A DNA stretch of 64,000 nt from Apteryx mantelli (taxonomy: Eukaryota; Chordata; Aves; Apterygiformes; Apterygidae), in NCBI RefSeq assembly GCF_036417845.1, contig NC_089990.1:1991501-2055500 (forward strand), read 5' to 3'. The number at the start of each line of letters is the position of its first letter. The stretch's first letter is position 1. Positions 8,552 through 59,505 of this stretch are shown here, in pieces. A model generated the notes under the pieces. It was not told the DNA's origin. It did no database searches and saw only the letters and a program-made list of their open reading frames with translations. Made by a program: the position numbers and the translations under genes.

Positions 8552-11500
8552 ATGGGCCGCCCTGCCGTGCCCGCCGCCGTGGCCGCGGCGCTGCTCTGCC
8601 AGCTGGGCCTCTCGGCGGCCATCCGGTGGCTGTGAGTAGCGGGACGGGGGGGGATGTGGGTCCCGGGTGCCTGGCGGCGGCAGGCAGAGTCCCACCAGGG
8701 CTCCCCTCTCCCCCACCTCACGGCTCCCCTTCGGGGCTGCCCCCAACAGGGCTCTTCCCCCTCACAGCTCCCATCAGGGACCCCCAGTGGGTTCCCCCCC
8801 CCTCATGGCCCCCCCATCAGGGCTGCCCCTCTCCAGGGCTCGACCCCCATCAGGGCTCTTCCCCCTCACAGCTCCCTTCAGGGATGCCCAGGGCTGCTCC
8901 CCCCCATCAGGACTCTCCCCCCCCTCACAGCTCCCCTCAGGACCCTCTCTGAGGGCTGTTCCCCCCCCTCACAGTTCCCCTCAGGGACCCCCCATTGGGC
9001 TCCCCCCTCATGACCCTCCTTCAGGGCTCTCCCCCTTCACAGCTGTCCCCTCAGGGCTGCCCCATATCATGGCTCTCCCCCTCCGGGCTCCCCTCAGGGA
9101 CCCCTTCCCTTCCCTGTGGCTGCCTCCCCCTCAGAGCAGCTCCCCCCTCATGTCCCCCATCAGGGCTCTCCCCCTCCAGGCTCCCCTCAGGGACCCCTTC
9201 CCTGCCCTGTGGCTGCCTCCCCCTCATGCTGGCTCCCCTCACGGCTCCCCCCCTCACAGCCACCCCCTCAGGGCCTGGGCCAGCCCAAATCGGGGTGCAG
9301 CCGGATCCCCTCAGGGCCCGGCCCCCAGCGCTCTGTCCCCGGCCCCCCCGCTCACTGTCCCCCGTCCCTCGGAGGGGGGTGTCCGCGCACACCCCCCCCC
9401 TCCCCTCACGCCTGGCCTCTCCCCGCAGCGGGCTGACGGAGAGCGGCAGCCGGGTGGCCTGGAACGAAACCCAGCACTGCCGGCTGCTCGCGGGCTTGGT
9501 GCCCGACCAGTTCCAGATGTGCCGGAGGAACCTGGAGGTCATGCACAGCATCGTCCGGGCCGCCACCGACACCAAGAGCGTCTGCCAGAAAACCTTCGCC
9601 GACATGCGGTGGAACTGCTCCTCCATCCAGCGCGCCCCCGCCTTCGGTCCTGACCTGCTAAAAGGTAAAGGAACCTTCGCCCGGTGTTTTCATGCTGGTT
9701 TTTCTGCTTCTCGTAGCTTTTTGGGCAAACGGTGCTTTAGACAGTGCTTTAACAAACAAAACTGCTGTTCGTTTGATGGGCGTCAATCCTGCCTCAGATT
9801 CGTTGGGGAAAACTTGCTGCTATTACAACAGTGGTGTTAATTTGATTTCAGGCAAAACCAATTGCTAGAGGCTCTGAAAAAGGGAGAAGAGCTCTAATCC
9901 AGCAGAAACAGAGGCTATATAATGAGCGGATAATACAATAGGGGGCACAGGTTAAAAATACGGAGCACAAGAAAAATGTGTTAAGCCTAAGCTTTATCTT
10001 GTTGCAAGAAAGAAAGCAGCATTTGCGTTGAAAATATCCTCCTGAGTCTTTCTTTAGTGGCATGTAGCAGTGTTTAGCAATGATTGATAGGCAGTATTGA
10101 AGAAAAGTCTGGCAAAGAGCATGAGGCTGATACAGTGGGGTGTATCGCAGAGGTATGAAGGTGGCTAAGCTGGATCGAGTCAGATGGAGAAGAGAAAGGG
10201 AAGAGAAAATGCCTGGTGCTGACTTACACAGCAGATGTGTGAAGTGTTGGGAGGACTTCAGATGTGCAGGGACTTGAGATCCATGTGGGTGGGACAAGTG
10301 CGGTGGAAAGCAGTGCAGGACTTGCACACAGTGTTATGCCTTGTAAGGACTTCTGAGGCTGAGCAGGGCTAGCCATGGTGTGCTGCTGCCCGGCTTATCT
10401 GAGTGTCAGCCCTAACGAGTCATGTTTTCCCTATCCCCACTGTATGTGGGGAAGTGCAGTTGCTTTTGTGCTGAGACCTCTCCAAAATGCACCTGTTGGT
10501 AGTGGGTAGAAATGGAACCGATTGCAGGTGACTTGCTTGGCACCGGGAAAACCCTTTGCATTGCAAGGTTTGTGACTTGATGTGTTCAGGTGGGTGTGAC
10601 ATTTTCCCCCTTTTCTTTGCAGGAACCAGGGAATCTGCCTTTGTCCATGCTCTTGCTGCTGCTGCTGTCACGCACTCTATTGCTCAGGCCTGCGCCTCTG
10701 GAGAACTCCCTCTCTGTTCGTGTGGATCTGTCCCATCTGAGGTCCCGGGGCCTGACTTCCGATGGGGTGGCTGTGGGGACAACCTGCGCTATGGCCTCCA
10801 GCTTGGTGCTGCTTTTGCTGACAGTCCCTTGAAATCCAGCAAGCTGAGAACACAAGCTATCAAGGCCATGAATCTGCATAACAATGCTGTGGGCCGACAG
10901 GTGGGTATGGTCACTGGCCACAAATTGCTACAACAGGGGCACATAGTGATGCAACTTGGATGGCCGGGAGCCTAATGTAAGGTTGTAGACTCTGGCCAGG
11001 CTGTTGGGATGCTGTCCTTAAAGTGAGGAGACAACTAAATTGTTAAAATGGAGCTACATCTGTTTGCAGACACACACACGCACGTATCCCTGTACCCCTT
11101 ACACAACTAGGGAGGTATTGGCAACTTTACATTACGCTAATTCTTTATGCCCTTCTAATGGAAAGTAAAGGCCCATCCTGCTTCGTGGCTGCTCTGCTTC
11201 AAGGAATGCTGTCAGTTGTGCTTATCAGCTATGCTGAGAACTGCAAATTTCTTTGTGCTTTCATGCAGTCGTGTTCCCCAGATGAGGACTTGGCCATCTC
11301 TGGCCAGCACATGTAAGTTAGGGAAGCGTCTGGCCCCACTGCAAACTCCAGCTGGTATTTTCCCAAAGGTTACATTCTTATCACCAGGGGAATGAAGCAG
11401 GGCTGAGTCCTTGATTGCCCCATTATATTCATTGCAAAGAAAGCATTCTCTTGTTGTCCCAATAGCATTGTTTTCTTTTGCCTTCAAACAGGTAAAAAGT

Positions 11501-13224
11501 TTCTCAGGTGGCAGAAAGCAGCAGAGCTTTTTCATCTCTCGAAGCCTCCTGTGGATGCTCTTGTAAATAAATCAGTAGGGTGGGTACCAGGCGAAAGCAA
11601 AAGTAAATTCATCTGTTTTCCTGTCTTCTGCAGGTACTGAGTGACTCCTTGGAAACCAAGTGCAAATGCCATGGTGTTTCAGGCTCCTGTTCAGTTAAGA
11701 CCTGTTGGAAGGGTCTACCAAACCTGGGTGAAATTGCCTCTGACCTCAAATCCAAGTACCTGGCAGCTATCAAGGTGACCCACCGGCTCCTGGGGCCCAG
11801 GAAGCAGCTAATACCAAAAGAAATGGATGTGAGGCCAGTGAAAGAGACTGATTTGGTTTATCTGATCAACTCTCCAGACTACTGCACTGTGAATCTCCAG
11901 CTGGGGTCTCTGGGGACACAGGATAGGTAAGAAACTGCTACAAATACATAATAAATCAGCCTCTAATATAGAGAGGCTTCTGTTACATATATGTAACCGG
12001 AAATACTCTGGACAGTCTCTGCAGTCTCTCAGCAGTTTGGAAAGGGGTATAACTGCCATATCTTTATGCAGAGTGCTGCTTACATCTGCTGCAGTAAGCC
12101 TGTAGCCCCCTGTATCTGCAGAGGCAGACTGTACGAGCAGACCCACCAAAGACTTGGGCAGGAAGAACATCCTTTCCATTGCATTGACTCATGTGGCACC
12201 TTCTGTGGCTTAAACTAACACCTACCCATGTATGAGTGTCTGTACCACTGGGTTTGAGAGCACGCTCTAAGAAGTTTATGTGGATGGATGGTTCCCAGTT
12301 AGATGTGGACACCATGGGGATTGCTGGGAAGTCTTTGCATATTTTAAGCCTCCATGGGGAGGATGGCAGATGTTGCTTTTATGGAACTATGCAGGAATAA
12401 AGGCAATTGGGAGTCTAGCAGGCCATCACTGATAGTCCATCACCTCCACTCTGCTCCAGGACAGGATCCAGCCATTTCAGGGAGTGGAGTCAGGGAGGAA
12501 AAATCTTGCCCCTCCCTGCAAACCTATGGGTGCTGCATGCCTGTAAACAGGGTAGGAAGGTTCAGCAGTCCTTGGAGTCTGTGGTGTTTCCCAGAGGTCA
12601 TCTTTCTGGGGTGTATTTTTGTGGGGGGGGGGTGGTCTAGAAGGGTGGGGAAGCATAGTCTGAAGGCTGAGCCAAGGTTGCCTCAGGGCTGTGACTTGCA
12701 ATCCCTGTTAGATCTAGCAATAGCAGAAGTAACTGGTCCTAGCCATCCTCCCTTCCTTCTCCACTGGAAGTTCCTGCACCAGCGTGATATAGTGTGTGTC
12801 CATCCTCAGTCACAGCCACTGGCACAGTGTTTGCACTGTCATGGTAACATGAGCAGAAATCAGCTCCAGTTAGTGTGTGCCACAAGCAGCCCCTGCTTTC
12901 CCCCTGTATCTTGCTGCCTCTTGCTATGGGCAAGAAATCTTTGCCAGGAAGCCAGGGCAGACAGCTGTGGCCTGTACCCTCTTCTGCCACCATGATGGGC
13001 GGACATGTACAGTCTCTGAATTCTTGCTTGTACGTCCTCCCATTGGCAGGCAGTGCAACAAGACCTCCGTGGGCAGTGACGGCTGCAACCTGATGTGCTG
13101 CGGCCGTGGCTACAACGCCTACACTGAAGAGATGGTGGAGAGGTGTCACTGCAAGTATCACTGGTGCTGCTATGTGGTGTGCAAGAAGTGCCGGCGGATG
13201 GTGGAGAGATACGTCTGTAAATAG
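8552..13224 (+). CDS. WNT11B: Wnt ligand, WNT11 family (WNT11B)
   Basis: Secreted lipid-modified Wnt ligand that acts through Frizzled receptors. WNT11-class ligands mainly drive non-canonical planar-polarity and calcium signalling. Coding exons are 8552-8631, 9429-9664, 10623-10900, 11634-11926 and 13050-13224. All introns are GT-AG and the phases join into 353 aa, against 354 for human WNT11. Residues 1 to about 22 form a signal peptide. The family signature MRWNCSS is in exon 2, GTRESAF spans exons 2/3, [10 protein letters not shown] is at 208-217, and the C-terminus has the usual cysteine-rich [11 protein letters not shown] block ending RYVCK. Ser214 is the expected palmitoleate site, by analogy with human WNT11 Ser215. 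The sequence is WNT11-like throughout. I call it the WNT11B paralogue because of its IGBP1/P2RY4 neighbourhood, since WNT11 proper sits in the 11q13-type block. The start has a CCATGG context just behind the TATA box. No defects are seen. Confidence 0.93.
8690..9260. repeat. Degenerate C-rich minisatellite in WNT11B intron 1
   Basis: Intron 1 is built largely from variants of ctcacagctcccctcaggg and gggctctcccccctca, in units of roughly 25-60 bases. The clearest pair is 9076-9130 against 9170-9230, which match apart from a few bases. The array contains no stop codons in several frames, which creates long spurious open frames across the intron. I do not regard these as coding. Confidence 0.7.
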
Positions 13225-14297
13225 CGCAGGAGGCTTCACGGCAGGCGGGGGAGGACTCCTTGTGCTGGTACCCTCCAGCGTGCATCTGGAGCCTGGACAC
13301 GAACTGCAAGGGATGCTTTGAGCTATGGCAAGAAGGGGGCTGAGCTGGAAGCCTGGACTCTGGCATTACCACAAACCAAGTGATGAGGGGGAGTCTAAAA
13401 CCCAAGGCCGACCTTTCCTCCATTTCTCCAGAGACAAAGGGCTGCTCTTCTGCAGCTGATCAGGAGTGTCCAGCCCTCTGTCTCCTGCTGGGGACAAACC
13501 ATTTGTCACTCTGCATGCACAGACCCTTTTCTCCAGGGGTGAATGGGGACCCTGGGCTGCCATTGTCTCTTTGCAGGAGGTTTTTGACAGTAGCCTGAAA
13601 GCTAGGAGTGATGGATGGGAAAGGGGGTAAAGAGCTGCCCATTGGGAGAAAGCTGCAGGGGAAGAAAGCTGCTGCTCAGGGTGAGGGGTCATGGGCTGTT
13701 GCTCTGGGGGGGGCAGGTTTCTGCTGTGGGCTCACCCCACACCACTAAATGTTCCTCCTCAGGGGCAGATATTTGTCCAGTGTCTTTCACAGCATCTGAA
13801 ATGAAGACCATGTTTGGACACAGGGAGAACCAATTATTGCTCCAGGAGACTCATCAATCTTCTCCAAGATCTGCATGGAGATTGCTCCTCCTCAGTAATG
13901 AGAGACTTCATCTGTGACTGATGCCAATATACAAGCCTACGGACAGGAGGGGTCCTGGAGGCTGCCTAGGCAGGTTGGTGTGGCAAAACCACACACATCG
14001 ACCTTGTATTAACAAAACAACCATGGTAGCCCCGTAGTTTCTGCCCTCTGAACTTGTGTTGGAGGTGGAAGCCCATTCAGCAAGTGTGCTCACTCGTCCT
14101 TCCTACCCCTTCTGTTAGATCACAAGGGTATTCAGCCTATTTCCTCCACCACCACCACCCCCCCCTTAATACTGGGTGTGCTGGCACTCTGGCCTGGAGA
14201 GAGGACATGACTTCAGGGCCCTAGGGGAATAAGATTGAACCTTTAGACTCTGTACTCGCTTATTTAATGTAAGTGGGATTCTGGTGTGTGTTTTTTA

Positions 14298-14303
14298 AAT
14301 AAA
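14298..14303 (+). terminator. WNT11B: WNT11B poly(A) signal
   Basis: The first good AATAAA after the WNT11B stop codon lies about 1.07 kb downstream, in an AT-rich stretch. It would give a 3' UTR of roughly 1.1 kb. The sequence between the stop codon and this signal has no other gene. Confidence 0.6.
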
Positions 14304-14979
14304 CATATTACAGCATCTCTTCTGGTGACAGACCTACATGTTTCCTAGGACAGCCTCATTCCTCCCCTCTGTTGGAATTCAGCTGGCCACAGGGAAAATG
14401 AGGCTGTAAGGAGAGTGAAGCACTGTTTCTGCACCCTCACACAATGGTGCCACAACTTGTATGGCAGAGAACTGGTTCTGTTCTAAGACATGTTTTTTAC
14501 TTTCTGCTGCTCATTGGTCCAGGTTTGCCTTTAACCTACAGTTATTGCCGGTCAGCCTCAGCTATTACGCACGTACAGAAAACCTTATGGAATACTTCCT
14601 TGGGCCTCTGACCAACAAGCTAAGAATTCAGCCTTCTGGGGTTTAGTTTTGTTAGCTTGAAAACTGAGGAAGCATGGGCTTATTTTCTGATCCTTGTGAA
14701 CGTGGGCTGGACTGTGTGTGTGAACAGCAAGAAGTCAGAAGTTGCAGGATGGGGGGCCTGATATACCTTTCCTTCCCTCTGCTGCCCTGATTTATTCTAG
14801 CACTGAAGCTGGCCAAGTGTTTGCATAGAATAAGAGATTCCAGTTCATGCAGGCTTTGGAGAGAAAGGATGAGTCTAAATACAAATGTGCTCAGAAAACC
14901 TACAGCATGAGGAATATAGGTAAATGTGACTGAAATCCTAAGACAAATTCCTGCAGTTCACACCATGACCTAGAGACTC

Positions 14980-15340
14980 TGGCGGCTTTGCATGCATCTT
15001 GTTTTATTTGTGGTTTGCATTGAATGGAATTGGCTGTGTTCAGCCCTGAGTCCAGCTGTAAGATTACTCATTTCCATATTCATTCAATCATTTTAATAGC
15101 CTCTGCTGGGTCATGGAATCAATTCATAAGCTTTTATTGTAAATTGTCCCCTCCATTTAATGTGCTCCAGGTTTCTATATTAAGAGTGAATAAGAGCTGA
15201 GAGTCAAAGGTGATTTGAGAGAAGCCTGGGAGCTGGAAGTTGAAATGCTCAGGGGTGAAGCATATGCTCACATAGTTAACTAAGTGAGTTAACTATCATT
15301 ATCAGTTGTTAATGTGCCATTGACTTGATCAGGCTGCTGG
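14980..15340. promoter_or_regulatory. Candidate conserved noncoding element
   Basis: This AT-rich, CpG-poor block contains a GCATGC core, many ATTCA/ATTAA motifs and GTTAAC cores. The octamer agttaact occurs twice (15274-15281 and 15287-15294), separated by five bases. Each copy is itself palindromic, so the pair also reads as an inverted repeat. This texture is typical of vertebrate developmental enhancers, but no comparison was possible. Confidence 0.3.
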
Positions 15341-18291
15341 CATATAGCCTTCCCAGAGTGACAGCAAAGCCACAGCTGCAAGGCTTCCGTCACAGCTGCA
15401 AGGCCAAAAAAGCTATCTCTCAAGATTTTCTTTTAAAATGCAATTAGGAGTTAGTCACCAACATTCCTCAGAAAAGGGGAGTCTTCAAGCTGCTAGGCTG
15501 CAAAATGGGTGAAGCTTCTATATCCAGAACCAGGCTAAGCGGAGAGGTGATGCAGGTACTTAATTAGGAGGATTGCTTAAATACCTTCTCTATAGCCACC
15601 TCACTCTTCATTGCAAGATCAGAGGGAGGTGAAACTGGGAGGGGCTGTGAACTCTGCAGAGCATTGCAAAATGAGCTGGTGAGAAAAAAACAGGGGAAGG
15701 ATATTGTGGAGTGAGAGATTCGGCCAGGAGGGTGGGAAATGTGATTTGCATTTGGTAACTACAAACATACATAGCCTGGGGTAGAGGAGAAGGGCTACAA
15801 TAGCTAGGAATGCCCTGAGGAGGTGTTGTGATCCTCTCCTACAGAGGTCCTGTTTGAATTTCTGCCTGGGAAAAGGCAGGGTCAAGTGCTGAATATGCAG
15901 AGTCCTCTCCTTCCCTCACTTTTTGCATTCTGACTGCAGGCCCAACAGGGAAGAATTGGGAAAGGATTGGAGGGGTCATTTGGCAGTGAAGATGCTGGGC
16001 TCCATTTACGTCTTGGAGGAAATTGGAAAGCACTGTAATTAGTTGAAGGATGCAAATGGTCAGGCGGACAGGAAGGACTGTGGTGGGGAGATGACAGTCA
16101 AATGACAATGTTTTGAGTGGGAGGTGTTGTAATCCTGGGCCCACATCTGGAATTACCGGGCTTGTGAGATCTGCTAGACTGAGAGAGTCTCCCAGGGACA
16201 AAGAGCCAGAACAAGGCAATTAATACTAGATGATGGATGCAGAAGGAATAAACCATGCAGTTGAGGGGATCCATCTGACCGAATGCATTTTCTATCTCTA
16301 CTCCTGCCTGGACAGAAATGCCAGTAGGAAGTCGCCAGAGGAACACAGAGCCCTTTTCCCTCTGCCCAGGCTGGCACAAGAACCCTCTGAGGTAAAAGAT
16401 GGGAACAACTTGAATGTGGATGTCACCCTTCAGTGGCTTCCAGCGCTAGAAAGTGCAATGCCTTCTGCCAGAGAAATCAGTACAAGAGACTTTTTCTCCA
16501 ACCCTCTATACCTTCTGTTCCACCACAAATGTTTCAAGCTCTGGTAGATACCACTTCAGGACCTGATTAAACCTGGACCAGGAAGGTAGCACTGTCCCTG
16601 TAACTGAGAAGATCTGTGTAATGGTTGTGGCTTTGCAGCCCTTCAGACATTCCCTCCAACATTTCTTTTGCCTCAGTTTCACAATCAGTCCTCTCCAGAG
16701 TGTGGTAGACTGCTGTCATTACCCTCTGCTTCATGAAACCTCATCTGGCTTGTTACTGATGTTGGCGGATCTACCTCTTCACTTTTCTTTCCTAAGCCTT
16801 TTTTTATTATCTTTTTTTCTAATGTCTTGTGGCTTTTTGTTTATCTTTCTCTCTGGAAATGAAATTCCTGGAGCTGATTTTGCCATGGCCATGGCAGAAG
16901 TCTTTCACTTCTTGGTGCTGTGAATTGATGTGGAAGAGATGGCTCTGAATTTGGCTTGAGCTCAGAAAAAAGAAGGAAACTTATTCCTCTACATGAAGTA
17001 TGATGAGAAGTAGGCAAGGGGTTTGCTCTGAAGAGGCTCCTCTCCTCACTAGCTGATTTTTTTACTTGTGTTTGAAAGGAGTAACACTGAAATGAACAGG
17101 ATCATTCCCTACTGGTTAGATTGTGTGGACAATGAGGTCTATAGAAAAGAGAGCAATTTGCATGGATTCCTTTGACTTTGATAAAGAACAATTTTTTTAA
17201 TTTATTTCTTTATTCATTGAAGGATGCTCAATAAATTATTCCAGGAGGATAACCTGAGCAAAGGCAACTAGCTGTTGGTAAATAAGTAAGAGTTTTGGGG
17301 ATGAATGACTTTGTTCAAGAACATGTTGGGATGTTTCCTCCCTACAGCCCTGAGACTGCAGCTCTGACAGGAAGGTGGGGTGGGTCAGGGCTTTCACCTG
17401 CACCAGTGGAGTTCCTTGGCTATGACAAAAGCTGAGCCAGAATGAAAAGGCTTGGGATGGCATCACTGCCTGGGGGCTCAGCTGTTGATCAACATCTGTA
17501 CTGCTTTAGATATTTGGGGGATGTTACTTTGAACTTTGGGACAGCTGGTGCCTACGTTATTCCGCCTCAAGACACAAACATGAGTAAGTGCTTGTATTTA
17601 AGGAAGAACCTTTGCATCTCTGTTCTCCTTTATTTCTGGGGTGTTCAGCAGTATCATGACACCCTGAGGATGACAAGCAACCATAGGGATTGTCCTTATG
17701 GGGATCTTCAGCTGGGAAACAGGGATGAATCAACGAGAGTAACAGCCATGAGACTGAGGGGGAACTAGACTGCAGCCTGGAAGGACCTCAGGCGTAGCAC
17801 GAAGGGCAGTGGATGCAATGGCTGTGCTAGATTCAAAGAGAAAGAGACTCCCATCCCTTCTTCTCGGATGGTCAGGCGGGAATCCCTTCCAGATCAGAAT
17901 CATGTGTTTCAGCAAGTTGGTGAATCAGAGGAGAAAAGACCCAGATACAAAAGGCTGCTGTGGAGAACTACACTCTGAAGTCAAGAAACTGTCCCGTGGT
18001 GCTTGTTGGTTTCTTTGCAGAACAAAAGACACGCAACAGAAAAAGCCTGGGAGCATCATGTTACCTGCGCTTGTACCAGCACTGTCACCGGAACAGGACT
18101 TTGCTAGGAGGAGATATGGCCAAAAGTATTCTTAAGGAAAGGCTGACTGCTGTGCGAGCAGTCTTCAGCAGCGGGGACGCAGTGAGAGAGAGCTGGAGTC
18201 CTGTCAAGCTGAATGCAGCAAAAATGATGGGATCTCTCTCTAGGAAGGTCACACTGAGGAGACACCCTGCAGGAGGGAAGCAGCAGCTGTA

Positions 18292-18345
18292 CCACCCAAT
18301 GGTGCACAGGCTCAGGGACCACCCGATGATGCACAGGCTCGGGGA
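18292..18345. repeat. 27-bp tandem duplication
   Basis: Two adjacent 27-base units, 18292-18318 and 18319-18345, share the core gcacaggctc and differ at about four positions. The duplication lies in noncoding sequence between WNT11B and IGBP1 and explains the internal repeat in the spurious open frame that spans it. Confidence 0.8.
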
Positions 18346-20179
18346 CAGAACAGGCCAACTGCATGTTATGGTATCCTTATCACAGCCAGAGGGGCCAGGA
18401 AGAGAGTAGGGTTGCTACATTTCTAAGCACCTTGGTCTCCTTTCACCACCCTGTTTTTCCTCCCTCTCACTTGTTTTCTGGGCAATAGGGCCTAGTTTGA
18501 ATTCATTCATGTATAGTGTGGGTGGCGCACTGCAGGTTGCTTGTGGTAGACTTTTCAAATTGCAGAGAAGGTGCCCTGGCCTTATTGATGAATCACTAAA
18601 TAATAGCATCTTCCTTGTGTGCATTCCTGAGGAAACCACCTCCAAAGCCAGTCAGAAGGTGAGTTAAGCAGGGAAGGATGTGCAGAACAGTCTTGTCTCC
18701 AAAGCAGAGGCTGACTTAGGCCTATGAGCTGCCTTAGGGCTGCCATGCAACTGGGCTTTTCCAGATACATCCTCCCCCTCCCACCCCAGAACTCAGTCCA
18801 CTCAGATTTTGAGGACTTTCTCAGCTTATGTTTGTGTCAGCCATGACCACTGTGCATGTGCTGTGTGGTAGAGCAAGGAATTTCCAGGCATGCTTCAGTC
18901 TGGCTGGAGTGTTATTTGTGCGTACCATGCTGTAGGGCCACATGCAGGAGCTCCAACACCTTCCAGGAAGACTGGACGTACTTGTAACGTGTCTGGTGCT
19001 CCTGGGAAGCACTGGACAGGCCCTCTGGATGTGCAAAGCCAGATGTTCTGCACATGTGCATTAAATGGAATACACCATAGCGGTCCTGGTTTTACTACCT
19101 ATATAATGGAAAGCATGTGGGCATGTTTCATGTCTGGGAAACGATGGGCGGAAATATAAGGACACTCCAGAACCTGAGGTGAGATTGATCCCTAGATGTC
19201 AACTTCATGCTGAAAACCTACTGCACTAAAACACCCTGTAGAGCTGGAGAGTGGAAGAGATTGATCCCCTGCTTGTCAAAACCCTGGGAACTCCCCCTTT
19301 TCACGTGCAGTGGAACTAATCACAGCTACTATTCCTGTAGTCCCCAGCTTGAGGCTCATTGTGGTGTGAATAGGGGCTTGCTAGATAATTATGCCTGCCA
19401 AAGAACCATTTATTTTTTCCTTGTGTTAAGAACATTAGTTCTGTAATTGGAAGGGGCAGCTCAGAAAAACATGTCCTGCCAAGCAGACCTCAGTCAGCAG
19501 GAGAACAACATGTGCGGGTACTTGCAATTTTTTATGCTGGGGTTGAAGACCAGCAGATTGTGGGTGATTTTGGTCACTAGCTCTTATTTCATGCTCCTGT
19601 GCTGTAAGTAGAACCTATTCTTGACCAACTGGAGCAACAGGTGAAAATAGGGCTGATTAACTCCTAGCAGGGAAATTCATGAACTTCCAACCAGCTAACA
19701 AGTGAGCTGACCCACTTGGCTCTTAGAGGCATGGCCTTCTCCCTCTCAGAGGAAACAGGGCCTCACACAGATTTCTTACTCTCAGTCTGGTTCACGTCTG
19801 GTGAGCTGTGACAGTGTGTGTCTGAAAGCTGGTCCTGTGCCACCCCTGGATATCTGGGGCAAAATGGTCCCCACGCAATGCTAAGGGAGGGGAAACTGCC
19901 CCATCATCAGCCTGTTTGCAATTATTTGGAGAGCAAGCCTATAGCTCCCTGCGAACCGCTGCTCTGGTTTGCTCCGAGAGGTGAAGGCCTCAGAAGGGCA
20001 TGCCTATAGAAGATACCCGTTAACGATTAAACAGAGTTTTCCTATGGGAAAGGTGATCTCTGAACTGCTCAGAGAGCCTCTGGATAACACTAAGGGTGAA
20101 GGAGTTCACTCTAGCAGTCTCTTTCACTCTGATCCTTAAGAAAAAAGTGCTGCTGAAATCTTGGCTCTTAGTTAAAAGG

Positions 20180-20410
20180 GGTGATGATTTGATAGGTTTA
20201 TTGCAGCTTTTAATTAATCCGTGTGTAAGGGGAAGATGCTGTATTGATAGTGGCATTGCCTTTTTGTTGAAAGGGAACTAGTAATTGTTAGGGATGTCAT
20301 AGCATTTTGTGTTAGTGAAGAACAAATGGCTGTTGATTCATGGCCCCATTCTGCTTCCAATAATTATATTAATTAATTTTCCCACTGCTGGACAGAGTGC
20401 TGTTCTTCAC
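20180..20410. promoter_or_regulatory. Candidate conserved noncoding element
   Basis: AT-rich sequence with TTTAATTAAT near 20210 and an AATTATATTAATTAATTTTC-type cluster near 20360-20380. Homeodomain-type TAAT cores recur on both strands. It resembles enhancer-type noncoding DNA, but function is inferred from composition alone. Confidence 0.22.
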
Positions 20411-22999
20411 TTCCTGCCTGGTATGCAGGAATACTGCATAATGACATGTAAAACTGTTGACGTATCTCACAGTACTGGTGTCTGCATTTTCAGGCATAAG
20501 CAAAATGGTCACACAGAGAGAGGATGACAGGATAGTAAAACTATTGGGGGTCTATTCAGGACAAAGAATACAGGAACCTAAATCCACAACTGCTCTGTTT
20601 TTTATGATTAACTTTTTATCAAGCTTCCTCATGTATGTATGAAGAAAACAAACACAGGAGATGATAAACTGACTCATTCTAGTAGGTTAATTGCTGCAAG
20701 CCTGCCCTGAATTACTGTTGCACCATATAAATTTTTCACAGCTAGGTCAATTACTTTTATTGTACTTCTTATGGACCAATGTCAGTTTGTAGAAATACAG
20801 CTTTAACTCTTATCTGTCTTATCCCTATTTTAATTTCAGAAATATTGTAAGAAAGGACTCTGAGCTAAAAGCAAGGAAACGTGACTAGCTTTTTGTCTTT
20901 CTTTTGTTTCAAAAAAGCTACACAGAGAAGAAACGGGAGGCATTGCACTTATAAAATACTACACTGCCTGTACATATTGACATGCTGTGCTTTGTGTTGT
21001 CCAGACTGTCTGTCAGATTTAGATCCCATGCTAGGCAGTAAGAGTCCAATCCAGTACAAGCCATTAGTGAATCCCAGCTGTGGCACTGGCCGCAGTGTCC
21101 TATGGCTTAATGTCATTCTGACTCTTCCAAGTGCAGGAGAGGACCACACGCAGTACCTGCCATCACAGATTTAATAACTGCTCTAGCACCTGGGGCAAGA
21201 CACGCTGCCGTCATGACCTGTACGTTTGCCTGGGACAGCCTTGCCGCGGCTGCTGTGACTTCAGGTGGCCTTCAGGGAGGGCTTGCAGGGCCTCACTGCT
21301 AGCAATGACTTAGCTCCCTCTGGTGCAGCCGCGCAGACAAAACACACCCAGGCGCACACCAACACCTTCACCGCACAGAGATGTGCAGGCTGCTGCCACG
21401 CAAACCGCTGCGCTGGGAGACGAGAGCTGAGCACCATGCAGAAATGCTAGCGTAGGGTTCACATGCAGAATGGCTAACTAGCCTGATCTTCAAATGGGCT
21501 CATCAGGACAATATTGTTTATACTGATATAAAGCTTATGAAGTATTTGATTACAGCTTGGCTGGTGCTGCATAGCACCATGTTATGTTATGCAGACAAAC
21601 TCCAACCTTGCACTGCATATTTCTTCTGGTAAGATTAATGGAAAGAGATTCACAATATTAAAAAAAAAAAAACAAAAAAACAACCACCAAACCAATAATC
21701 TCCAGAGGTGTGGGTACTGGAGCAAAAATCACATGGGAGGTGACATGAGCTTTTGGAAATCCAGGTCCTCTTGGTTTAGCAGGAAGAACTCTAGGGAGCT
21801 TGTATTTAATGCTATCTACAAAAAAACCCCAAGGCCTAAAAAGATGAGTAACTGCTGTTATATATGTGGATGCACTTAAGATAAGACAGGCCATGAGCAA
21901 AAGCATCCGGTGGAAGGGAAAACCAGAGTAGACAACAGAAACAAACTTCTGCCAGTTTTCTCTGTAAAGTCTCTTTATATTCATGGCTCGTTTGCTTGAG
22001 CACACTGAATGTGAGACATTGCTCTACACCTGGCCAAGGGAGGGTATCCCCACTGGTAAAGAATCTCTTATGGCCGAAGACGTGAATCACTGCTCCAGAC
22101 ACGTACAACAGCACATTTGATTTTAAAAGGAGAACAGAAATACAATCCCTTTTAAAGGATTGATGTCCTCCATGGAGGCTCAGTCCATGCAAGCAGAGAG
22201 TGCTGACATTTGAGGAGGGCCTTAAGGGTGGTATTGCCCTGCCTTGGGTCGATCAACTGTTTGAGACCCTTCTGCCTCTCAGTCACTGGGGCACCTTGGC
22301 TGTACTCTTCATCGTTTGCTATCTTCTGCCCTGCCTTCAGCTTATCTCTTCATAACTAAAGTCACTGTCTAGCTCCCTTCTCCCTCTCTGTTCCTTCCTG
22401 AACACTGTGTTATTAACATGCCACTTGCTGCCGGATGCAGGTTACTTTGCTTGTGCCTTATAACCCTTGTCCTGCGATGCATCACCTTGTCTGTAGATGC
22501 TGGAAGTTGTGGAGAGATGGACCAGGTCTTATTTTCTGTTGTGATACAGAATGCTGCTTAACCGGTGTATATGCTGTGTGTCATATTAAAATCGGTATGA
22601 CTGGTAATGGTGACAGCCAAATCGGCAGAGCTAAAGAAGTGGCTAGCTAGCTGCATTTTCCACTTCACTTTGTCCCTTCCGATTTAATTTCTGGCATAAC
22701 CTGTTGTCTTTGTATTCTTTGGGCTATTCTCATAAGAGCCCAATTTCAAAGTAATTTGTTTAGAACAGATGTTTCATAAAAAATGTGCTATTTTAACATG
22801 GCAATGGCCTCTTTGCCATTCTCGCTCAATTTCTGAGTGGGAAGAAGGCACGTTTTCTGACAATTTCCCTAACTGTCATTATCTTTGCTTGGTCGGTAGG
22901 ACCCAGGCCACCACTAGAAGTTTAACGCCTTGGTAGGTGCGGTATTTGAGGAGTTACGTGAGCCAGACAAGGGCAGCAGGTCGGATTTTGCAGGCGATG

Positions 23000-43700: not shown

Positions 43701-46700
43701 ACACGTCTATAGGGAAGTGGAGGAAGACCGAAATGGCGCCATCGGCGTAGTGAGGAGCAAAGAGCTTGCTCAGCTGTAAAGCTGCAAAGCTGCTGGCAGA
43801 GCTTTCTTTCTAATAAGCTTATTTCAGGCAATCTCTGACCAGACCTAGCTTGGATTTTTTTTTTTCCCCAACTTTAACTATATAGTTATTCATTGTCCTG
43901 GGGAAATGAGCAAATAATGCTGCTTCACCCACGAAGACTATGGAACATCTTATGTTCTCAGCTTGGGTAGGAAGAACAAGCCCTGGATAGAAAGCAGGCA
44001 TAGCAGGGAGTTAATAAAGTGATGCAGCTGCCTGTTCTTCTCTACCGCTAACATCCTTTGTGTAAGACTGTCTCAGACGATCACCACAATTCACAGATAA
44101 ACACCAGCTGATAAGCACGTACCTAGCAAGATGCAAGGCCTGAGAAAGTAAAAAGATTCGGACTCTCTCTGCCAGCAAAGCAATCCTCGCCGGAGCCTGC
44201 ACAGCAAAGTCAAGCAGTGGCTGTGCAGCAGAGCAGCAAATACTCTCTGTGGAGAGACCAGCGAACAGGGAAGGTCTTGCTGGGATCAAACGGGTGCCTG
44301 TACTACCCCGCCGGGGTTCGGAACGATCGTGCACGTATCACATCTGCGCTCAAGCCTTCCTCGCACCAGCATCTGCTCAGCTTCCCACTCCAGCTGCAGG
44401 CCTTTGTCCCAGTTCTCAATGCAGTCATTACCGAGCCCCAGCGACATCGAGTCTGAATTTGGATCTATGAATCATTTTGACAGCGGTGTCCTTAGAGAAA
44501 GGGCAGGGAGAAGCACACAAGGGAAGGCCTTTGCAGGGTAGAACCGGTTACTGAGACACCGTCGAGAGAAGGCGCCAGCCTATGAGTTCACCTGCCTTTA
44601 AGGGATCTTGTGATATGTTCCTCGTGGGAAAACCCTGCTGCTCCAGGTGTCTTTCACGGTAGAGATATTCCCTTCCATCTGCAGGTTCAACAAAGGACTG
44701 AGGCTCCTAATGCTAACTCAGCTTCTGGCTGACGAGTGAAACCAGTGCGAGGTTAAAAGCCTGCACAAGAGACGGGGGCTTAAGCCCTGTGCTGGGTGCG
44801 GGCCATCAGGACCACCCGCTCTCCTTCGGCTGGTCCCCAGGAGGGGAGGAAGCCCGGACTGTGACAGCTTCCACGCGGGACCTCACCGGTGGCAGGTACT
44901 GTACGACGTACCAAGCCCTGGTGATGGGGAGACCCGATCGGTGGAAAGGGACTTATCTTCAGCGCTGAAATATTAACCCAAGGTAATCCATCGCCCCTGC
45001 GGCACAGCACCATTGGCACCAGCCCGTCCAAAGGCAAGGAAAGGTGGCTCCGCTCCCCCAGGCAGAGCAGGAGCATGAGGAAGTCACTATTATCTATCCT
45101 TCAGCTGAGATTTTCCTAACACTGCAGCAAAGGGCCGTGTCAGAGCAAGTTTCGGAACAGAAATAAGAGGAGATGCCGGGAATCCCAGGCCCGAGATCGC
45201 TGCGGGTGTGCATGGGAATTTCCTGGCTCCCTCAGAACAATACAGAGCTCTGCTGGGCTGCTCTACCCTTGCAAAGCCAGGAAAAGGAGGGATCGGGCTT
45301 GGAAGGAGAGTCTAGCTCTGGGTATAACACAGCGCCTTAGAAGCTCACCTTCCAGCGTCCCATTAAACCAGTATAAATTTATTACAGCATAAAATTTTCG
45401 GTACATTTTTGCTGGCAGGACTGTCAAGAAAATCAAAGAACTGAAACCCCTGAGCTTGTGCATGGCCTCAGCAGAGCACCTGGAGCCACATCCGGGGGAA
45501 GAAACCGGCAGCCATCTGTCTCAGGTGCGGCCAGACTCCCTTCGTCGCTGGGGTTTATTGCACGGGTCTGGCCAGCAGCTGTTTCTCTCAAAGTCGAGAC
45601 ACCGATGAGGATATGAAGGATCAGGAGATTTGTTTTCCTCTTCTAACCTCTGAACAAATGGAGCATGAAACAACGCGATCTACCAGACCGGACGTGCTGA
45701 AGGATTCAGCGACCAAAGCCAATTTCCAAAAAACACAGGTCGACAATCATGAGGAAGATATGAAAAAATCCAGTGGGTTAAAAAAAAATAAAAATCTAAC
45801 ATCAAAAAGAAAAGAGAAAGACAAAGGAAAAGGGAGAAAGCATCTGAGTAGCTGTCTGGTGGAGGGCTCTTCAGATGGGAGCGTAGGTTCATGGTGTCTG
45901 TCTCCCAAAAATACAAAGCCTTGAGCATAGCTGGTATTTAGCAACATCTTTTAACTATCCCTAAGCCAGTTTTCTTCAGGAAAACTGCTGAAAGACAAAA
46001 ATGTGAGACGACTACGTTTGACACTCTAATCTCAACAGCCAACGTTTCCTGCTTCCTCATCTTAGTCATGAACAAAATCAGCGGTTTAAGTTGCTCTGAT
46101 TTACATTAGTCCACCCTGAGGACACGTCATCGCCGGGCCTGTTCCCATTTCCAGGTAACTTCACCAGCACCGTTTTTCCCTGGCCACGGCCTCTCCTGGG
46201 TGGACTTTTTCTGGAGGGAGCGAGCGCAGCTGCAGCGAGGCTCCGAGCTCCGTGTCAGCCGTGTCCCGGCCGGGTGCTGCCGCCTGGGAGCCGGCCAGGG
46301 AGACAAAAAGCCCTGGAGGAAAAGGACGCGGAGCGGCTCGCCTGGACCCCGGCACGCCGCAGCGTTCCCCAGGCCTCCTGCGTGCCGAATTTATGTAGGC
46401 GCGGTGGAAAGGCGTCAATAAAACGGATGAGCCCGGCAGTGCGGATGCCGGGCTCCGCTCGGGAGCCAAAGGTCCTGCCGCCCCGGGAGGACGGGGGACG
46501 CCGGGGCTGCGCCGTCCGGCCCCGCGCCGTCGGCACTTTGGGAGCTGCTGCACAGAAACGCGAATTGCGGAGAGGAGCGGCCGAGCCGCTGAGTGATATC
46601 TGGGCAGGGTGAGCTGGAAGCGAGGGAGACGCGGGGCTTTTCTTCTCGCCCAAAAACGCTCGGAAGTTGCAAAACAAGGGGGAAATTATGCAAAACGCCC

Positions 46701-47955
46701 TGCACAAGGACCCTTGTCCCTAATCGCCACGTGGTTTGCACAGCCAAAGCCCTGGCATGGGGAGGGACGGGGGGGGGGGGGACGGGGGGCGTGTGACCCA
46801 ATTTCTTTTTGATCCTTTTTCCTTTGGCTGCGAGAGCGGCTGCAGCCGAAGGGCGAACGCCGAGTCGCTGCCCCCGGAGCCGACGCTTCCTCCCCCGGGA
46901 GCGGACGCTTTCCGTGCTGCCCGTGGGCTCGTCCTTGCCGAGGTGACACCGTTTCCCAGCGGGGAGGGATGTGACATGGGTGTTTTTTTGTTTTTTTTTT
47001 TTTTTGACTAATTTTGCCAGTTCGGCAGGGTTCCCCCCAGACCCTCCACCTCCTCGGGACGAGCCCACGGAGCTAGGATGGAGGCAGAGCAGCCGGAGGG
47101 CAACTCGCCTCCGGAGGGGGACAACCCCCTTGGAGCGAGGCAGAGGGGGCAGAGGAGGAGGAGGAGGAGGAGGAGGAGGCAGCGCGTGGGGAGGGATGAA
47201 GGCCCCGCTGGGGAGGACGCCCAGGCCCGGCTGGGGCGACGACAGCAAGGACGGGGCGTCCCTCGGCGCCCGCTCGGTGCCCTCCCCCCGCCATCCCGAA
47301 ACCCGCACCCCTGGGGCGGCCGGGGCCAGCTCCCCGGGAAGGTCCCACGTCCCCTGTCCCCACCGTCCCCACCGTCCCCGCCGCCGCCACCGCCTCCGCC
47401 TCACCTCCAGTCCCGGCGCGGGGGCCATGCCGGGCTGGGCGCCCTCGAGCAGCACCGCTCCCGCTCCCGCTCCTGCTCCCGCTCTGCGGCTCGGGGAGCA
47501 AAGTGCCAGGGAGAGGCTGGGCCGGAGGCGGGCGGAGGCGGGGGCAGGTGCCCGAGGCCACCACCACCGCCTGCTTCCCTCGCCACCACCACCGCCACCA
47601 CCACCGGCACGGGGACGGGGACGGGGACGGCTGCCCCCCCTTGCCGCCCCCCCCGGCCCTGCACCCCGGGGTCTCACACCCAGTCCCCTCTCCTGGGGGA
47701 CAAAGGTGGCCACTGCCACCTTGAGGCCAGCCCGGGCATCGTGTCCCCAAGGATGGGCACCGCTCCGAGGAAGCTTCAGTTTCTTCGGAAGAGCGCGTTC
47801 ACCTCCGCGCTGCGGCCCCCCGCCGAGGACGCGGCACGTGCCAAACCATCCGGGCCGCGGGAGGAAGCGGCGCGTTCCCGCCGGGATGGCTCCCGCCGCA
47901 TCGCGGCCGGCGTCGAAGACCAGGCGGCCCCGCGGCGCCCTCCGAGCCCTGAGGC
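40724..47955. other. Region between P2RY4 and the SHIP2-type gene
   Basis: No protein-coding gene was recognised. It should contain the upstream noncoding exon(s) and promoter of P2RY4, which I could not place. The human neighbour ARR3 (cone arrestin) was looked for and no arrestin motif was seen. The open frame at 45613-45924 is lysine-rich, low-complexity and unlike any family I know. From 46.2 kb onward the sequence becomes extremely GC-rich with simple repeats: a T run near 46988-47005, (GGA)n near 47155-47182 and cac/ccg repeats near 47560-47610. Confidence 0.5.
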
Positions 47956-47961
47956 TTTATT
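47956..47961 (-). terminator. INPPL1: Poly(A) signal of the SHIP2-type gene
   Basis: AATAAA on the minus strand (TTTATT on plus) about 490 bases past the stop codon. It is the first canonical signal downstream of the gene and gives a 3' UTR of about 0.5 kb. Confidence 0.6.
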
Positions 47962-48452
47962 CTCGGTCGCGACGACGGCGGCGAGAGAGAGAGAGAGGCG
48001 CGAGGAAACGGCGACGCCGCGGCCTTCGGGAAGGGGATGGTCCTCACCTCCAGCGTGGCCTCCACGCGTCCCACGTCCCTGTCCCACAGGCTACCACCTC
48101 TCTTGGCTGGCGAGGCTCTCCACTTCCCGGTGGAGAAACGTCCGGTCGCTTACTGGCGAGGCCGGACAGCTTGGGAACGCGGCTGGTTTCACCGCAACAG
48201 GTCCGGGCTTGGGTGCAGGCATGGCACGGGCGCGTGCTGCAGCTGTCAGCGGGGCACGTTCGGCGAGACGTCGGCAGTGGTGGAGAAGACCGCGGAGGAA
48301 GCCAGCCAAGAGCGCATTTCCCAGTCACAGGTTTATCCCTGTGACCTCCAGTCCTGCCTCCTCTGCTCGGGGCTCTGGGCACCTTAGAGCAGAAGCTCCC
48401 CAAGAAGCTCCTCGGAGGAAACGCGCGCGCGTGGCACGTGCCACGCTGGCAT

Positions 48453-51400
48453 CTAGGCGTTTGGTTTCAGGTAGGGTCTCTGCTGCGGACTTTCAGCGGC
48501 GCTCTCGCGGAGTTTGGCTTGGATGAGCTTCCGGTGAGTAGGGCTCAGCACCCCGGCTTCCAGCAGGTCCTGCTCAGTGATGTCTCTGTACGGTGTGGGG
48601 TGAGAGAGAGCAACTGTAGGGAAGCCACCGAGAGGGCGCAGGGGCCAAGGGGATTCAGAAGGAATTGGGGGCTTGATCGGTTAACGGTCCCCTCTTCTGC
48701 GCTCTACCTTTCCTCCCTCCCTCCGGGCTTGGGGCTCACCAGGGACCTCGGGGACACAGGAGCTGGCCTGACCTGCTCCACTACTGCTTTGGCACTTGGG
48801 GACCGATTGCCCCACTGTGAGCTCCAGGATTTGGGGGAATACCTGAAGAACTCGAGGTCATCCCAGCCGTTTTCATACAGCCCCTCCTTGTATTGCTCCA
48901 AGCCGAGGTGACTCAGCCACGCGCCGATGCTGCGGGAGCGGTCGCCCCTGTCGCAGGGCCACTGGGGAGAGAAGGACAAGGACACGCTCCAGCAGCGTCG
49001 CGGCAGGGGACCGCGATGCGGCCGCCCTCGTTTCACCCACCGCGCGCAGCCAGGTGGTACCTCCGTGGTGCGGCCGTGCCGCCGGGCGTCCTGCGTGGGT
49101 GGCGGCAGCGGCGGCAGCGGCTCCAGGGCGCTGCGGGTCTGGCGCAGCTGCGCCTTGGGGCCACCGGCCGTGCCGGCGTCCGGGCGGCCGCCCCGCTCGG
49201 GGGACACCCGGTCCAGCTCGCTGAGGCACCTCGCCATGTGCAGCGCCGTCAGGGAGCAGTCGCCCTCCGCCGCCACCGCCGCCGCCACGTCCCTCTCCAG
49301 AACGGCCGATTTGGGCCTCTTCTGCCTGCCGGCGGGGAGGGGGCTGAGCTGGCGCCCGCGGCCGGGACCCCCCGCCACGCTGCGGGGCCGGCCGCCCCGC
49401 GGCTCTTCCTCCGCGGGCGGCGGGGCCGGGCTGCGGCGCCGCGGGCTTTCCGCCTGCCTCTCGCCGCGGGGGCGACGGAGGGCTTCGGAGGCGCCGGGCG
49501 CCGGGGCCCACGTGTTGGGCAACCCCTCGAATATGAAGTAGGCTGGGTTGGTGTAGCTGCTGGCCGCGTCCGGGACGCTGTGGGGCCGGCTCCTGAAACA
49601 CACGGCGGGACGAGGCGGGCTCAGCACCGCTGGCGCTGCCGGGGCTGGCGGCGGGGCCAAGATCTGCCGCGGGTACCTGACGCGGTGCGTGGGCGGCTTG
49701 GAGCACGTCGGGACATCGGCAGCCGCTTCGGCATCCTCCTCCTCGAAGCTGATCCACTCTGCAAACGACAAGGCTGGTGAAGGCTCGCTTGCAAGAAATT
49801 CGGGGCAGGAAGGGCACGGTTAAAGAGCTGCGTGCGGATATTTGAGTCCTGGCCTCTTTCAGCAGGAGCACAGGGTGTCTGGAGGACAAGTTAGTCCATG
49901 CACGGCCTCCGCTCGCTGCCGGAGAAGGGGAGCACCGCGCTGGGCATGGGGACCACTCAGCCACGCCACCCTCGACCCGTCCCAGGCAAGGCAGAGGCGG
50001 CCGAAGAGCGCGGCGGCGTTACCGTAGAGCCTCTCGCGGGTGCTGCGCCTGTCCTTGGGGACTCGGACCTTCATCCAGCCGCGCATGGAGCCCGTCTCCT
50101 CGCCGCGGTGGAAGAGGAAGGTCTCAAACTGCTGGGCCATGCTGCCAATCATGGACCTCATCGCGATGCAGCACTCGCCTGCGCCCACAGCACGCGGAGG
50201 CGTTAGCGGGACAGGAGCAGGGGCTGCTCTGTTTCCCGTTGCGGGACCCCCTTCCAGCAGCAACCCGGAGCGGGTGCTGCGCTGGGGAGGGTGGGTGTTG
50301 GGGTCCCCCCCTGCCAAATTCCAGCTGCAAAACCTCATACCCAGCAGGCCCACAGGCTGGGAGACACTGTTTCCCAAAAATTGCATGCAGAAGCTATTCT
50401 TGACACCACCCCTGCTTCCTTTAGGGGCCTCCTACAGGCCATCAAGGTCTCTCCCCGGTGCTCTGCTGGGCGCAGACCCACCGCAGCCCTGGGCTTGCAG
50501 CCTGTAGCTCCCTGCAGACCCCCCCCCCCCGCCAGGAGCCCCCGCCCCGAAGGCGTCCGCAGGGTGCCCGCAGCAGCCCAGCCCCGCCGTGCGCGGGGAC
50601 GTGCCGGCGCGGGGACACGCACCGTACGACTCGCAGCTCTCCACGCCCTTGATGCTGAGCAGCAGGTGCTGGTCCCCCAGGTACTCCAGGTCCGAGAGGA
50701 TGGGGTGCAGCTGCGCACGGGGAGAGCGGGTGCTGGGGAGCGCGGCCGCGGGGCCGGCACGAGGGTCGCTCCAGCCTCGGGAACAGTGATGGCCCCGGCA
50801 CTCCCCTTGGAGCAGAGCGCCGGTGCCGAGCCGGGCGGGAGGGATAGGGAAGGGGAGCGATGGGGGGTGCTGGCACGGAGCTGGTGCAAAGGGGCAGCCG
50901 GTGCCTCGTCCGCCCGCCCCTGCCCTACCGCGGCGGCCCGGACCCCCCCTCTCCCCGGCGCTCACCACGGGCAAGTGTTTGGCCGACCAGCTGAGCTTGA
51001 GGAAGCCGGGGATGTCGCAGCTCTGGGACGTGTTCTCCCCGCTCCGCTGGGGCTCTGCCAGCAAGAGAGCGTGAGGGCAGGCGGCTCCCTCCCGCCGCCG
51101 ATCCCACCGCCCTGCCCCACCGCGTGGCAGCCCGCCCGGGGCGCCGGCCTTAACCCGCACGGAGTCAAGCTCGGCGCCTCCGTGCCTTGCCCCAGGGCGC
51201 CCGGCTGCCCCGACGCTACGCGGCGGAGCGCAGCCATCCCCGCTGCCCCGGCCCGCGGGTGCACGGCTGCACGGACACCCCTCGCAGCCCAGGGTCCCGG
51301 CCCCGGCCCCAGCTCACCCTCCAGGCAGTAGGAGTGAAACTCGATGTAGCACTTGCTGCGGCTGGCGGTTTTCACGATCACCTCGATGCTCTCCCACTCG

Positions 51401-57400: not shown

Positions 57401-59505
57401 GGGCTGCTGGTAGGCGCCGACCAGGTCGGTGAGGCTGCGGAAGCACTTTGCCTGGATGCCCTGGATGGTCTGGGGAAGGAAGAGGACGGGACGTTGCCGC
57501 GGCGTTTCCCAGCGCCGCTCCGGGCGCTCGGCGCCGCTGCTCACGCCGTGATGCCGGGCAGGGAGGAAGGGCTCGTGCTCTCGCGGTGGGGGACGATGAC
57601 GGGCAACCGGTTTATGGCAGCCGAGTGCAAAGGTTTAAAGCCGCGGGCTTAAAGGCGGCAGCGGGCCGGGCGGAACAGGGCGCTGCCGGGGAGCCGGCGT
57701 TCCCAGGCCGCAGCTGCGCTCAGCGCGTCGGAAACCTTGGCGAGGCCGCGCTGCAAAAGGGCTCCGTGCACAGAATTCACATCCTGTGGCGCCGCGCGCT
57801 GAAGCTGGCTTATGCAAAAAGAAAACCACACCGCTCGCTTGCGGCTCCAGCGCGCATGGAAGTGCAAACGCCGCCTCTGCAGGCGCGGCGCACGCGGCCC
57901 CCCCGACGGCGGCGGCGGCGGAGGCAAACGTGCCAGCCTGCCCACCCCCAAATCCCGCCGGAGCCCCAAATCCCGCCGCCGGCCGGGCTCGCCAGCTCGC
58001 TCCCGGCCCGGGGCGCGACGGCGGGAGCGGGACCCGCTGCACCCACCTGGACGGAGAGCAGCCCCTCGTCGTCGGGGAGGATGCGGTAGGTGTGCACGTG
58101 CCGCTGGAACCTGCCGCGAGCAAGCAGGGGCTCAGCGGGTGCCCGCGCGTCCCCTCGCACGGGCTGGGCCGCCGGGGGGGGGGGGATGCAGCCGGGGGCG
58201 CCCCGAGACCACGGTGCGACGGCCGCGGGCAGCATGCGGCGAAACACGGCACAGCCGGAGCGCGGCTTCATCCCGGCGGGCTCGTCGGGGGCCGCTGCAC
58301 CGGCGCCGTGCTGCACGCTGCTGCCGTGACCCGGCTGACGGGTTAGTGTCCCCCCCGGCGCTTCTCGGCACCATGTGTTTGCAATTTGCACCACGCGCCG
58401 GGCCAGGAAAACCATAGGAAACGGGGCGGCATCCTTCCAGCCCGGCGCGAGGCACCGCCCCGTGCCCTGCGCGCCTCGCTCACGGCTGCGGACGTGTCGC
58501 CGTGCCGCGGCCGGGCCCCCGGCAGCCCCCGGCGCCGAGAGGACGCCTCGGCCCGGCGCGGAGGCGGCGGAGGGCCGGGATGCTCTCGGCCACCCCGGAG
58601 AGGTGACGATGGAGGAAGAGCTGGGCCGGTGCATCCGACTGAGGAGGGGGCGTTTGCATCGCACCCCCAGAGCCAGGAATCAGCCGGAGCTGGCGCAGGG
58701 GGTCTGGCTGTGGGGCAGAGCCCCGAGCGGCCCCCGCTATGGAAAGCGGGATTGCCGGGGAGGCGGAAAGTGCTCCCATGCATCCGCGCTCCCCCAGGCG
58801 GGGAAAAACCCGCTGCTCCTGTCTCAGCCGGCCCGGTGGGGCTTGGCGCCGCGGGGGCGCGAGCGGGCGACCCCAAAGCACCGCCTGCGCCCTTCCCGGC
58901 ACGCTCGGGCGCCGGCACCATTCCCCGGCGGCTCCCTCCGTTCCCAGGGGCCGCTCGCTCTCCGGGGAGCGAGTGTCCGCAGCCTGGGCGTCCCCGACGC
59001 TCCCAGCGCTCCATGCTCCACTGATGTGCGGATGGGGCAGGCAGGGAACGCTGGGTTTTGCCCCAGCATCGAATCCCTCAGGTCTTCGTGAATTTTGGGG
59101 CTGAGCAGGGCTCCTGGTCGGGATCCGGCCCAGGGACACGGCACCTCCTGCGGCCGGACCCGGGCATCTCTCGGAGCTCCCCGCATGTGGCCGGCCAGGC
59201 TGCCGGAGCGGGCAGCAGCTCAGCCGGTGCCGCCTGCTTTTCCCGGGAAAAGGCCTTGCTACCGCCCCGAGTGACGGCGCCAGGGTCCCGCACGGGGTAA
59301 GGGGGGAGAGGGACCGCGGAGGGGGCCGAGGGCGAGGAGGAAGAGGAGAAGCGAGGCAGGTAACTCACAGGAGGCACAGGGCGTACGCCCCGGACACGGA
59401 CTCGCTGTCCCGCACCAGGAAGCATCCGTCCTTGCCCGCTTTGGCCAGCAGGTCTTCAGCCACCACCCGGCTGATGTCGCGGTGGTACCAGCTTGCTGCC
59501 GCCAT
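48453..59505 (-). CDS. INPPL1: SHIP2-type inositol polyphosphate 5-phosphatase (INPPL1 family)
   Basis: Removes the 5-phosphate of PI(3,4,5)P3 at the membrane, damping PI3K/Akt signalling. The 26 coding exons, 5' to 3', are: 59505-59369, 58110-58047, 57469-57331, 57217-57085, 56951-56811, 56700-56613, 56213-56127, 55900-55793, 55685-55571, 55289-55183, 54990-54888, 54403-54207, 53901-53784, 53587-53491, 52981-52843, 52606-52507, 52216-52128, 51914-51833, 51734-51645, 51434-51318, 51054-50966, 50710-50623, 50178-50023, 49758-49061, 48961-48843, 48585-48453. Phases are continuous, giving 1177 aa (human SHIP2 1258). The SH2 domain is at 1 to about 110, with phosphotyrosine-binding Arg32 in FLVRDSES. 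Catalytic motifs are TWNMG (404-408), GDLNYR (580-585), PSWCDR (660-665) and SDHSPV (690-695). NPAY is near 932 and a SAM domain near 1105-1165. Intron 5 is GC-AG. The SAM domain and NPAYF point to SHIP2, not SHIP1. Because of its neighbours it may be a second, 2R-derived INPPL1 paralogue, so the symbol denotes the family. Confidence 0.92.
54406..54419 (-). repeat. INPPL1: Homopolymer C tract forming the exon 12 acceptor
   Basis: Fourteen consecutive G on the plus strand read as a C run on the gene strand. It serves as the pyrimidine tract and runs into the CAG acceptor of exon 12. Similar mononucleotide runs occur at 55743-55762 and near 55947-55960, inside other introns of this gene. Confidence 0.85.
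56805..56810 (-). other. INPPL1: Non-canonical GC donor of INPPL1-type intron 5
   Basis: The junction reads CACAG then GCGAGT on the gene strand. Only this GC donor gives the phase needed to join LH to SEIDF of exon 6, matching the family sequence LHSE(V/I)D. The nearby GT two codons later puts exon 6 out of frame. Confidence 0.7.

Follow-up and report, generated by a model that had tools for sequence, protein, structure and literature searches.

A compact kiwi gene block with WNT11B, P2RY4 and a third SHIP gene as a probable arm of an early vertebrate paralogon

The window analyzed here is a 64,000-nucleotide stretch of the Apteryx mantelli genome, in which we modeled five genes: WNT11B, IGBP1, a DGAT2-type acyltransferase gene, P2RY4, and a SHIP2-type phosphoinositide 5-phosphatase gene (Table 1). 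Exon models, restricted to GT-AG introns and built on anchors picked by eye, together with Pfam profiles bore out the five-gene content put forward in the initial annotation of this DNA, including its outermost start codons (the WNT11B ATG at 8552 on the forward strand and the SHIP ATG at 59505 on the reverse strand). All modeled frames are open, and the window genes are intact as far as modeled. Pfam profiles gave family assignments for WNT11B (wnt, 382 bits), the DGAT2-type gene (DAGAT, 402 bits), P2RY4 (7tm_1, 193 bits), and IGBP1, a member of the TAP42 family (289 bits against a cut-off of 26) that appears single-copy, with all six of its own-genome matches falling on its own six exons. 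For the DGAT2-type gene, no first exon with an ATG was found in the reading-frame lists, and its start at 33192 is an anchor rather than a splice site. To judge from sequence, these proteins probably work in the manner of their families, WNT11B being a secreted Wnt ligand, P2RY4 a receptor for nucleotides, and the DGAT2-type protein an acyltransferase acting on lipids. The window genes and those of the right flank very probably form one arm of a paralogon produced by the genome duplications of early vertebrates (2R).

Table 1. Features of the window and its right flank. Positions are those of the window unless preceded by the contig (C13).
Feature	Position	Strand	Details
Window	C13:1991501-2055500		genome of 1.504 Gb, 408 contigs
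WNT11B	8552-13221	+	5 exons, 353 amino acids, TAG next
WNT11B exons	8552-8631, 9429-9664, 10623-10900, 11634-11926, 13050-13221	+	
IGBP1	23338-28905	+	6 exons, 341 amino acids, TGA next
IGBP1 exons	23338-23528, 23640-23930, 26036-26231, 27247-27332, 28391-28503, 28760-28905	+	
DGAT2-type gene	33192-36368	+	7 exons, 345 amino acids, TGA next
DGAT2-type exons	33192-33312, 33478-33585, 34122-34192, 34554-34758, 35540-35714, 35848-36050, 36217-36368	+	
P2RY4	39602-40705	-	one exon, 368 amino acids, stop next
SHIP2-type phosphoinositide 5-phosphatase	59505 down to 48456	-	25 exons, 1082 amino acids, TAG next
SHIP SAM-domain exons (two)	48843-48961, 48456-48585	-	Pfam SAM_1, 45 bits; PDB SHIP2 SAM, 89 bits
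Arrestin	C13:2.057-2.061 Mb		read by eye in the right 50 kb; Pfam Arrestin_N
RAB6-type exons	C13:2.070-2.078 Mb		read by eye
KIF4A-type start	C13:2.093 Mb		read by eye

The phosphatase gene displays the complete build of a SHIP2-type protein. Its product is laid out as SH2, C2, 5-phosphatase, C2, an NPAY motif (seen by eye), and SAM; Pfam recognized the SH2, both SHIP C2 domains, the 5-phosphatase, and SAM in an earlier 906-amino-acid model, and the C-terminal SAM was matched by that of SHIP2 in the PDB. The best PDB matches were SHIP2 (776 bits), then SHIP1 (568 bits), and the catalytic motifs RFTHLFWFGDLNYR and PSWCDRILWKS are identical to those of SHIP2. One exon junction (4/5, 56807/56696) scored poorly. 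The third-position GC content of the gene is 0.90, in surrounding DNA of 65-75% GC. Judging by its domains, this protein is probably a phosphatase drawn by SH2, NPxY, and SAM to tyrosine-phosphorylated receptors, where it would turn PI(3,4,5)P3 into PI(3,4)P2 and probably damp PI3K signaling. Separately, among the PDB entries used for comparison, the 2ysx chain labeled SHIP II resembles the SHIP1 SH2 of 9vjl and not the SHIP2 SH2 of 2mk2, perhaps through a naming slip.

Searches of the kiwi genome with the window proteins, which score the best candidates only and thus yield counts that are lower bounds, placed the nearest relatives of all four multi-copy window families (4/4) within a single interval of contig C1 (2.095-4.273 Mb, i.e., 2.2 of 1504 Mb). 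Their order there (INPPL1, P2RY2, DGAT2, WNT11) is the SHIP-P2RY-DGAT-WNT11 order of the window. The parallel with an 11q13-type block drawn in the initial annotation could be recovered within the bird's own genome, for four families ordered alike, and two further families of the right flank extend it. Arrestin genes also lie at C1:2.367-2.370 Mb (74%) and C9:28.263-28.268 Mb (63%), i.e., at least three genes by protein query, with no fourth among the 13 matches listed, a lower bound; a genome search with profile PF02752 returned six places, with none of the three arrestins among them. RAB6-type genes were likewise found at C1:3.050 Mb and C9:32.07 Mb. Contig C9 provides part of a third arm: an arrestin lies 43 kb from INPP5D, and MOGAT1 and a RAB6-type gene are present at greater distances. 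Each SHIP gene found (3/3) has an arrestin within 300 kb, the distance being about 6 kb on C13 and 258 kb on C1. Overall, the linked families of the window have linked paralogs elsewhere (4/4 plus arrestin and RAB6-type on C1), in three arms (C1, C13, C9), as is characteristic of a 2R paralogon with three or four arms. The arms differ in extent, the C13 set (window and right flank) spanning 78 kb and the C1 set 2.18 Mb. These labels refer to positions on the human map (11q13, Xq13.1, and 2q37). On the right flank itself, the RAB6-type exons (C13:2070494-2078218) occur in two adjoining versions, the first piece of which is 79% and 97% identical to the query, representing either duplicated exons or tandem genes.

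We next consider the phylogenies, in which paralogs were named with PDB sequences as references for P2RY and SHIP, and with provisional human sequences for WNT11 and DGAT2; the names of MOGAT genes and of Wnt genes other than WNT11 are likewise provisional. The initial annotation had anticipated that each window gene would branch beside its 11q13-type relative. This held for all four families, with the proviso that for SHIP and DGAT the root is placed on the INPP5D and MOGAT side, respectively. For WNT11B, WNT11 at C1:4.259-4.273 Mb was the nearest gene both in the tree and in identity (49 to 80%, depending on the exon); nine other Wnt genes, whose undivided last exon yields a stronger single match, ranked above it by E-value. 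The tree covered 11 Wnt genes from this genome, nine of them represented by the last exons that ranked highest in the search. In it, WNT11B and C1 WNT11 form a clade (support 99.4/100), which places the window gene in the Wnt11 subfamily, and human WNT11 joins C1 WNT11 (91.4/95). WNT11B and WNT11 are identical at 73.2% of 149 sites, below four other Wnt pairs in the genome (74.5, 83.2, 87.1, and 94.0%). A second WNT4-like gene (C1:134756858-134757307) is 74.5% identical over 145 sites to the WNT4-like gene on C26. The first intron of WNT11B (8740-9243) contains imperfect C/T-rich repeats spaced 93-104 bases apart.

The DGAT search retrieved DGAT2 (C1:3.977-3.992 Mb), MOGAT2 (C1:3.935-3.950 Mb), MOGAT1 (C9:21.95 Mb), and two further genes on C41. 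In a tree built without the divergent C41b sequence, the window gene and C1 DGAT2 stand apart from the MOGATs (100/100), so that of the two relatives initially suggested DGAT2 was retained and MOGAT2 set aside. Human and bird DGAT2 group without the window gene (99.9/100), which is 67.0% identical to C1 DGAT2 over 191 sites. Human DGAT2L6 is most similar to the window gene (62.8%), although its position in the tree remained unplaced (12.4/46). The two C41 genes (C41:440663-448239) adjoin each other, one being MOGAT-like and the other divergent.

For P2RY4, the best PDB match was P2Y purinoceptor 4 (470 bits), then P2Y2 (382 bits), and the genome search returned P2RY2 at C1:3.342 Mb (56%) and a P2RY6-type gene at C1:3.291 Mb. 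The tree, including 10 of 15 loci and three PDB sequences, united the window gene with reference P2RY4 (94.5/91), bird with reference P2RY2 (99.7/100), and these two pairs against the other receptors (99.7/100). Here again one of two initially proposed relatives stood, with the tree pointing to P2RY2 and not P2RY6. A bird-only copy of P2RY2 as the origin of the window gene was rejected by the approximately unbiased (AU) test (p-AU 2.6e-7). In the same genome, C2:167.27-169.53 Mb carries an array of rhodopsin-type receptor genes, at least seven in number, whose scores are almost equal.

Besides the window gene, two SHIP genes were detected, one at C1:2.095-2.109 Mb, where SAM is matched, and one at C9:28.31-28.36 Mb, where it is not. 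Over 412 catalytic-domain sites, the former is 91.3% identical to SHIP2 and the latter 90.5% identical to SHIP1, and these genes are therefore INPPL1 and INPP5D. The window SHIP is thus a third gene beside both in one genome, sharing SH2, C2, 5-phosphatase, and C2 with SHIP2 and SHIP1 and a SAM domain with SHIP2. It is 75.5% identical to bird INPPL1 and 60.7% to bird INPP5D over the same sites. It falls outside the group formed by bird and human INPPL1, both for the catalytic domain (96.3/97) and with SH2 and SAM added (96.2/95), and an SH2 tree rooted on SAP placed it weakly with INPPL1 (86.6/76).

Taken together, these results support reading the window as part of a 2R-duplicated segment, through the parallel on C1, the gene order, and trees of bird-human depth. 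The most economical account is that a single ancestral segment was multiplied in 2R. This segment would have held a SHIP phosphatase, an arrestin, a RAB6-type gene, a P2Y receptor, a DAGAT acyltransferase, and a Wnt11 gene; once multiplied, one copy would have come to be spread over 2.2 Mb on C1 (11q13-type), a second squeezed into 78 kb on C13 (Xq13.1-type, window and right flank), with a third kept in part on C9. Of this, the gene content and order, the open frames, the domains and catalytic motifs, and the positions in the trees are seen directly, whereas the date of the duplication, expression, and biochemical function are inferred.

Several observations weigh against this interpretation. 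Gene order is not fully conserved, since C1 and C13 disagree in how P2RY and DGAT are oriented and carry the SHIP-arrestin-RAB6 end in opposite order, although one inversion of that end converts the C1 order to that of C13. The flank arrestin scores almost the same against beta-arrestin-1 (456 bits) as against cone arrestin (452 bits), and its name, ARR3, thus rests on position, while the RAB6-type gene of C9 matches slightly better than that of C1 (70.5 vs 68.4 bits). A tree with the window P2RY4 beside the P2RY2 clade was not rejected (p-AU 0.092), nor, at 5%, was one in which the window SHIP is a bird-lineage copy of INPPL1 (p-AU 0.052 for the catalytic domain, 0.070 for the concatenated alignment), albeit disfavored. 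The human WNT11, DGAT2, and DGAT2L6 sequences are provisional. Finally, the P2RY and SHIP trees reach bird-human depth only, which leaves room for duplication before 2R followed by loss.

This last point is the basis of one alternative, in which the paralogs would stem from local duplications before 2R, with the blocks then keeping different members. A caution of this kind is raised for arrestins in PMC5795056, and our comparison spans bird and human sequences. Such a scenario would require parallel sorting of several families, against one event per arm for a block duplication, and we regard it as very unlikely. Somewhat less improbable, yet still a long way behind, is that SHIP alone is a younger, fast-evolving INPPL1 copy, of the bird or sauropsid lineage, set between P2RY4 and arrestin in an otherwise 2R-derived block. 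The AU values given above leave it standing. No window gene was shown to be a recent copy or to fall inside the C1 clade, the outcome that the initial annotation named as refuting, but for SHIP a bird-lineage copy was not rejected at 5%. However, the window SHIP has introns (25 exons), lies beside an arrestin as do INPPL1 and INPP5D, and is far more distant from bird INPPL1 than bird and human INPPL1 are from each other (75.5% against 91.3%). An assembly error, with an 11q13-type segment partly misjoined into C13, is scarcely credible: C1 carries its own set, and identities between the two are only 58.7% (P2RY2), 67.0% (DGAT2), 64.3% (WNT11), and 75.5% (INPPL1), hence the window genes are not misplaced alleles.

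Mammals, including the corresponding interval of the mammalian X, are not known to carry WNT11B or the extra SHIP gene. Under the 2R interpretation, a single genome here displays a duplicated block with three arms and suggests an additional enzyme that damps PI3K, besides the pair of SHIP genes familiar from human textbooks. Should this gene prove ancient and expressed, its loss would mean that the way in which SHIP1 and SHIP2 share their work in mammals is derived. We see about even chances that early jawed vertebrates possessed a third SHIP, built like SHIP2, that arose in 2R in linkage with ARR3 and P2RY4, that birds keep it in GC-rich DNA of the kind often absent from older assemblies, that mammals lost it, and that it is undescribed as such. 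No third SHIP gene was met in a search of open-access papers, and this gene is therefore possibly the new part, the arrestin paralogon and WNT11B having already been published. On the other hand, the zebrafish symbol inppl1b stands in a gene list (PMC10801195), and with fish inppl1a/inppl1b in print, an annotated fish ortholog of the window SHIP is possible.

Parts of this block can be set against known systems. Arrestin genes lie in a 2R paralogon, with matching neighbor blocks on different chromosomes (PMC5795056, citing Nordstrom 2004 and Larhammar 2009), and the window adjoins one arrestin arm; the SHIP, WNT11, P2RY, and DGAT families are not named in the passages of that paper available to us. 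The presence of at least three visual/beta arrestin loci in the kiwi genome fits the possible loss of ARRB2 reported in birds (PMC5501109). WNT11B, a second WNT11 gene, is a vertebrate duplicate that chick, frogs, and fish retain but mammals have lost (PMC3498729, citing Hardy 2008). The window gene looks like the expected ortholog, with no difference seen when set against the published description of WNT11B. By the human map, the DGAT2L6/AWAT cluster presumably occupies the same neighborhood as the window, with several genes in mammals where the window has one. That cluster (DGAT2L6/AWAT1/AWAT2) has been traced to tandem duplication in the ancestor of mammals (PMC6526905).

For positions 1-8500, 13300-23300, and 41000-48400 and for the left 50-kb flank, reading-frame lists and motif matches suggested no gene that could be named among the entries listed. 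Two copies of a 136-base repeat, probably an interspersed element, were found at 29398-29533 and 36861-36996 with 91% identity.

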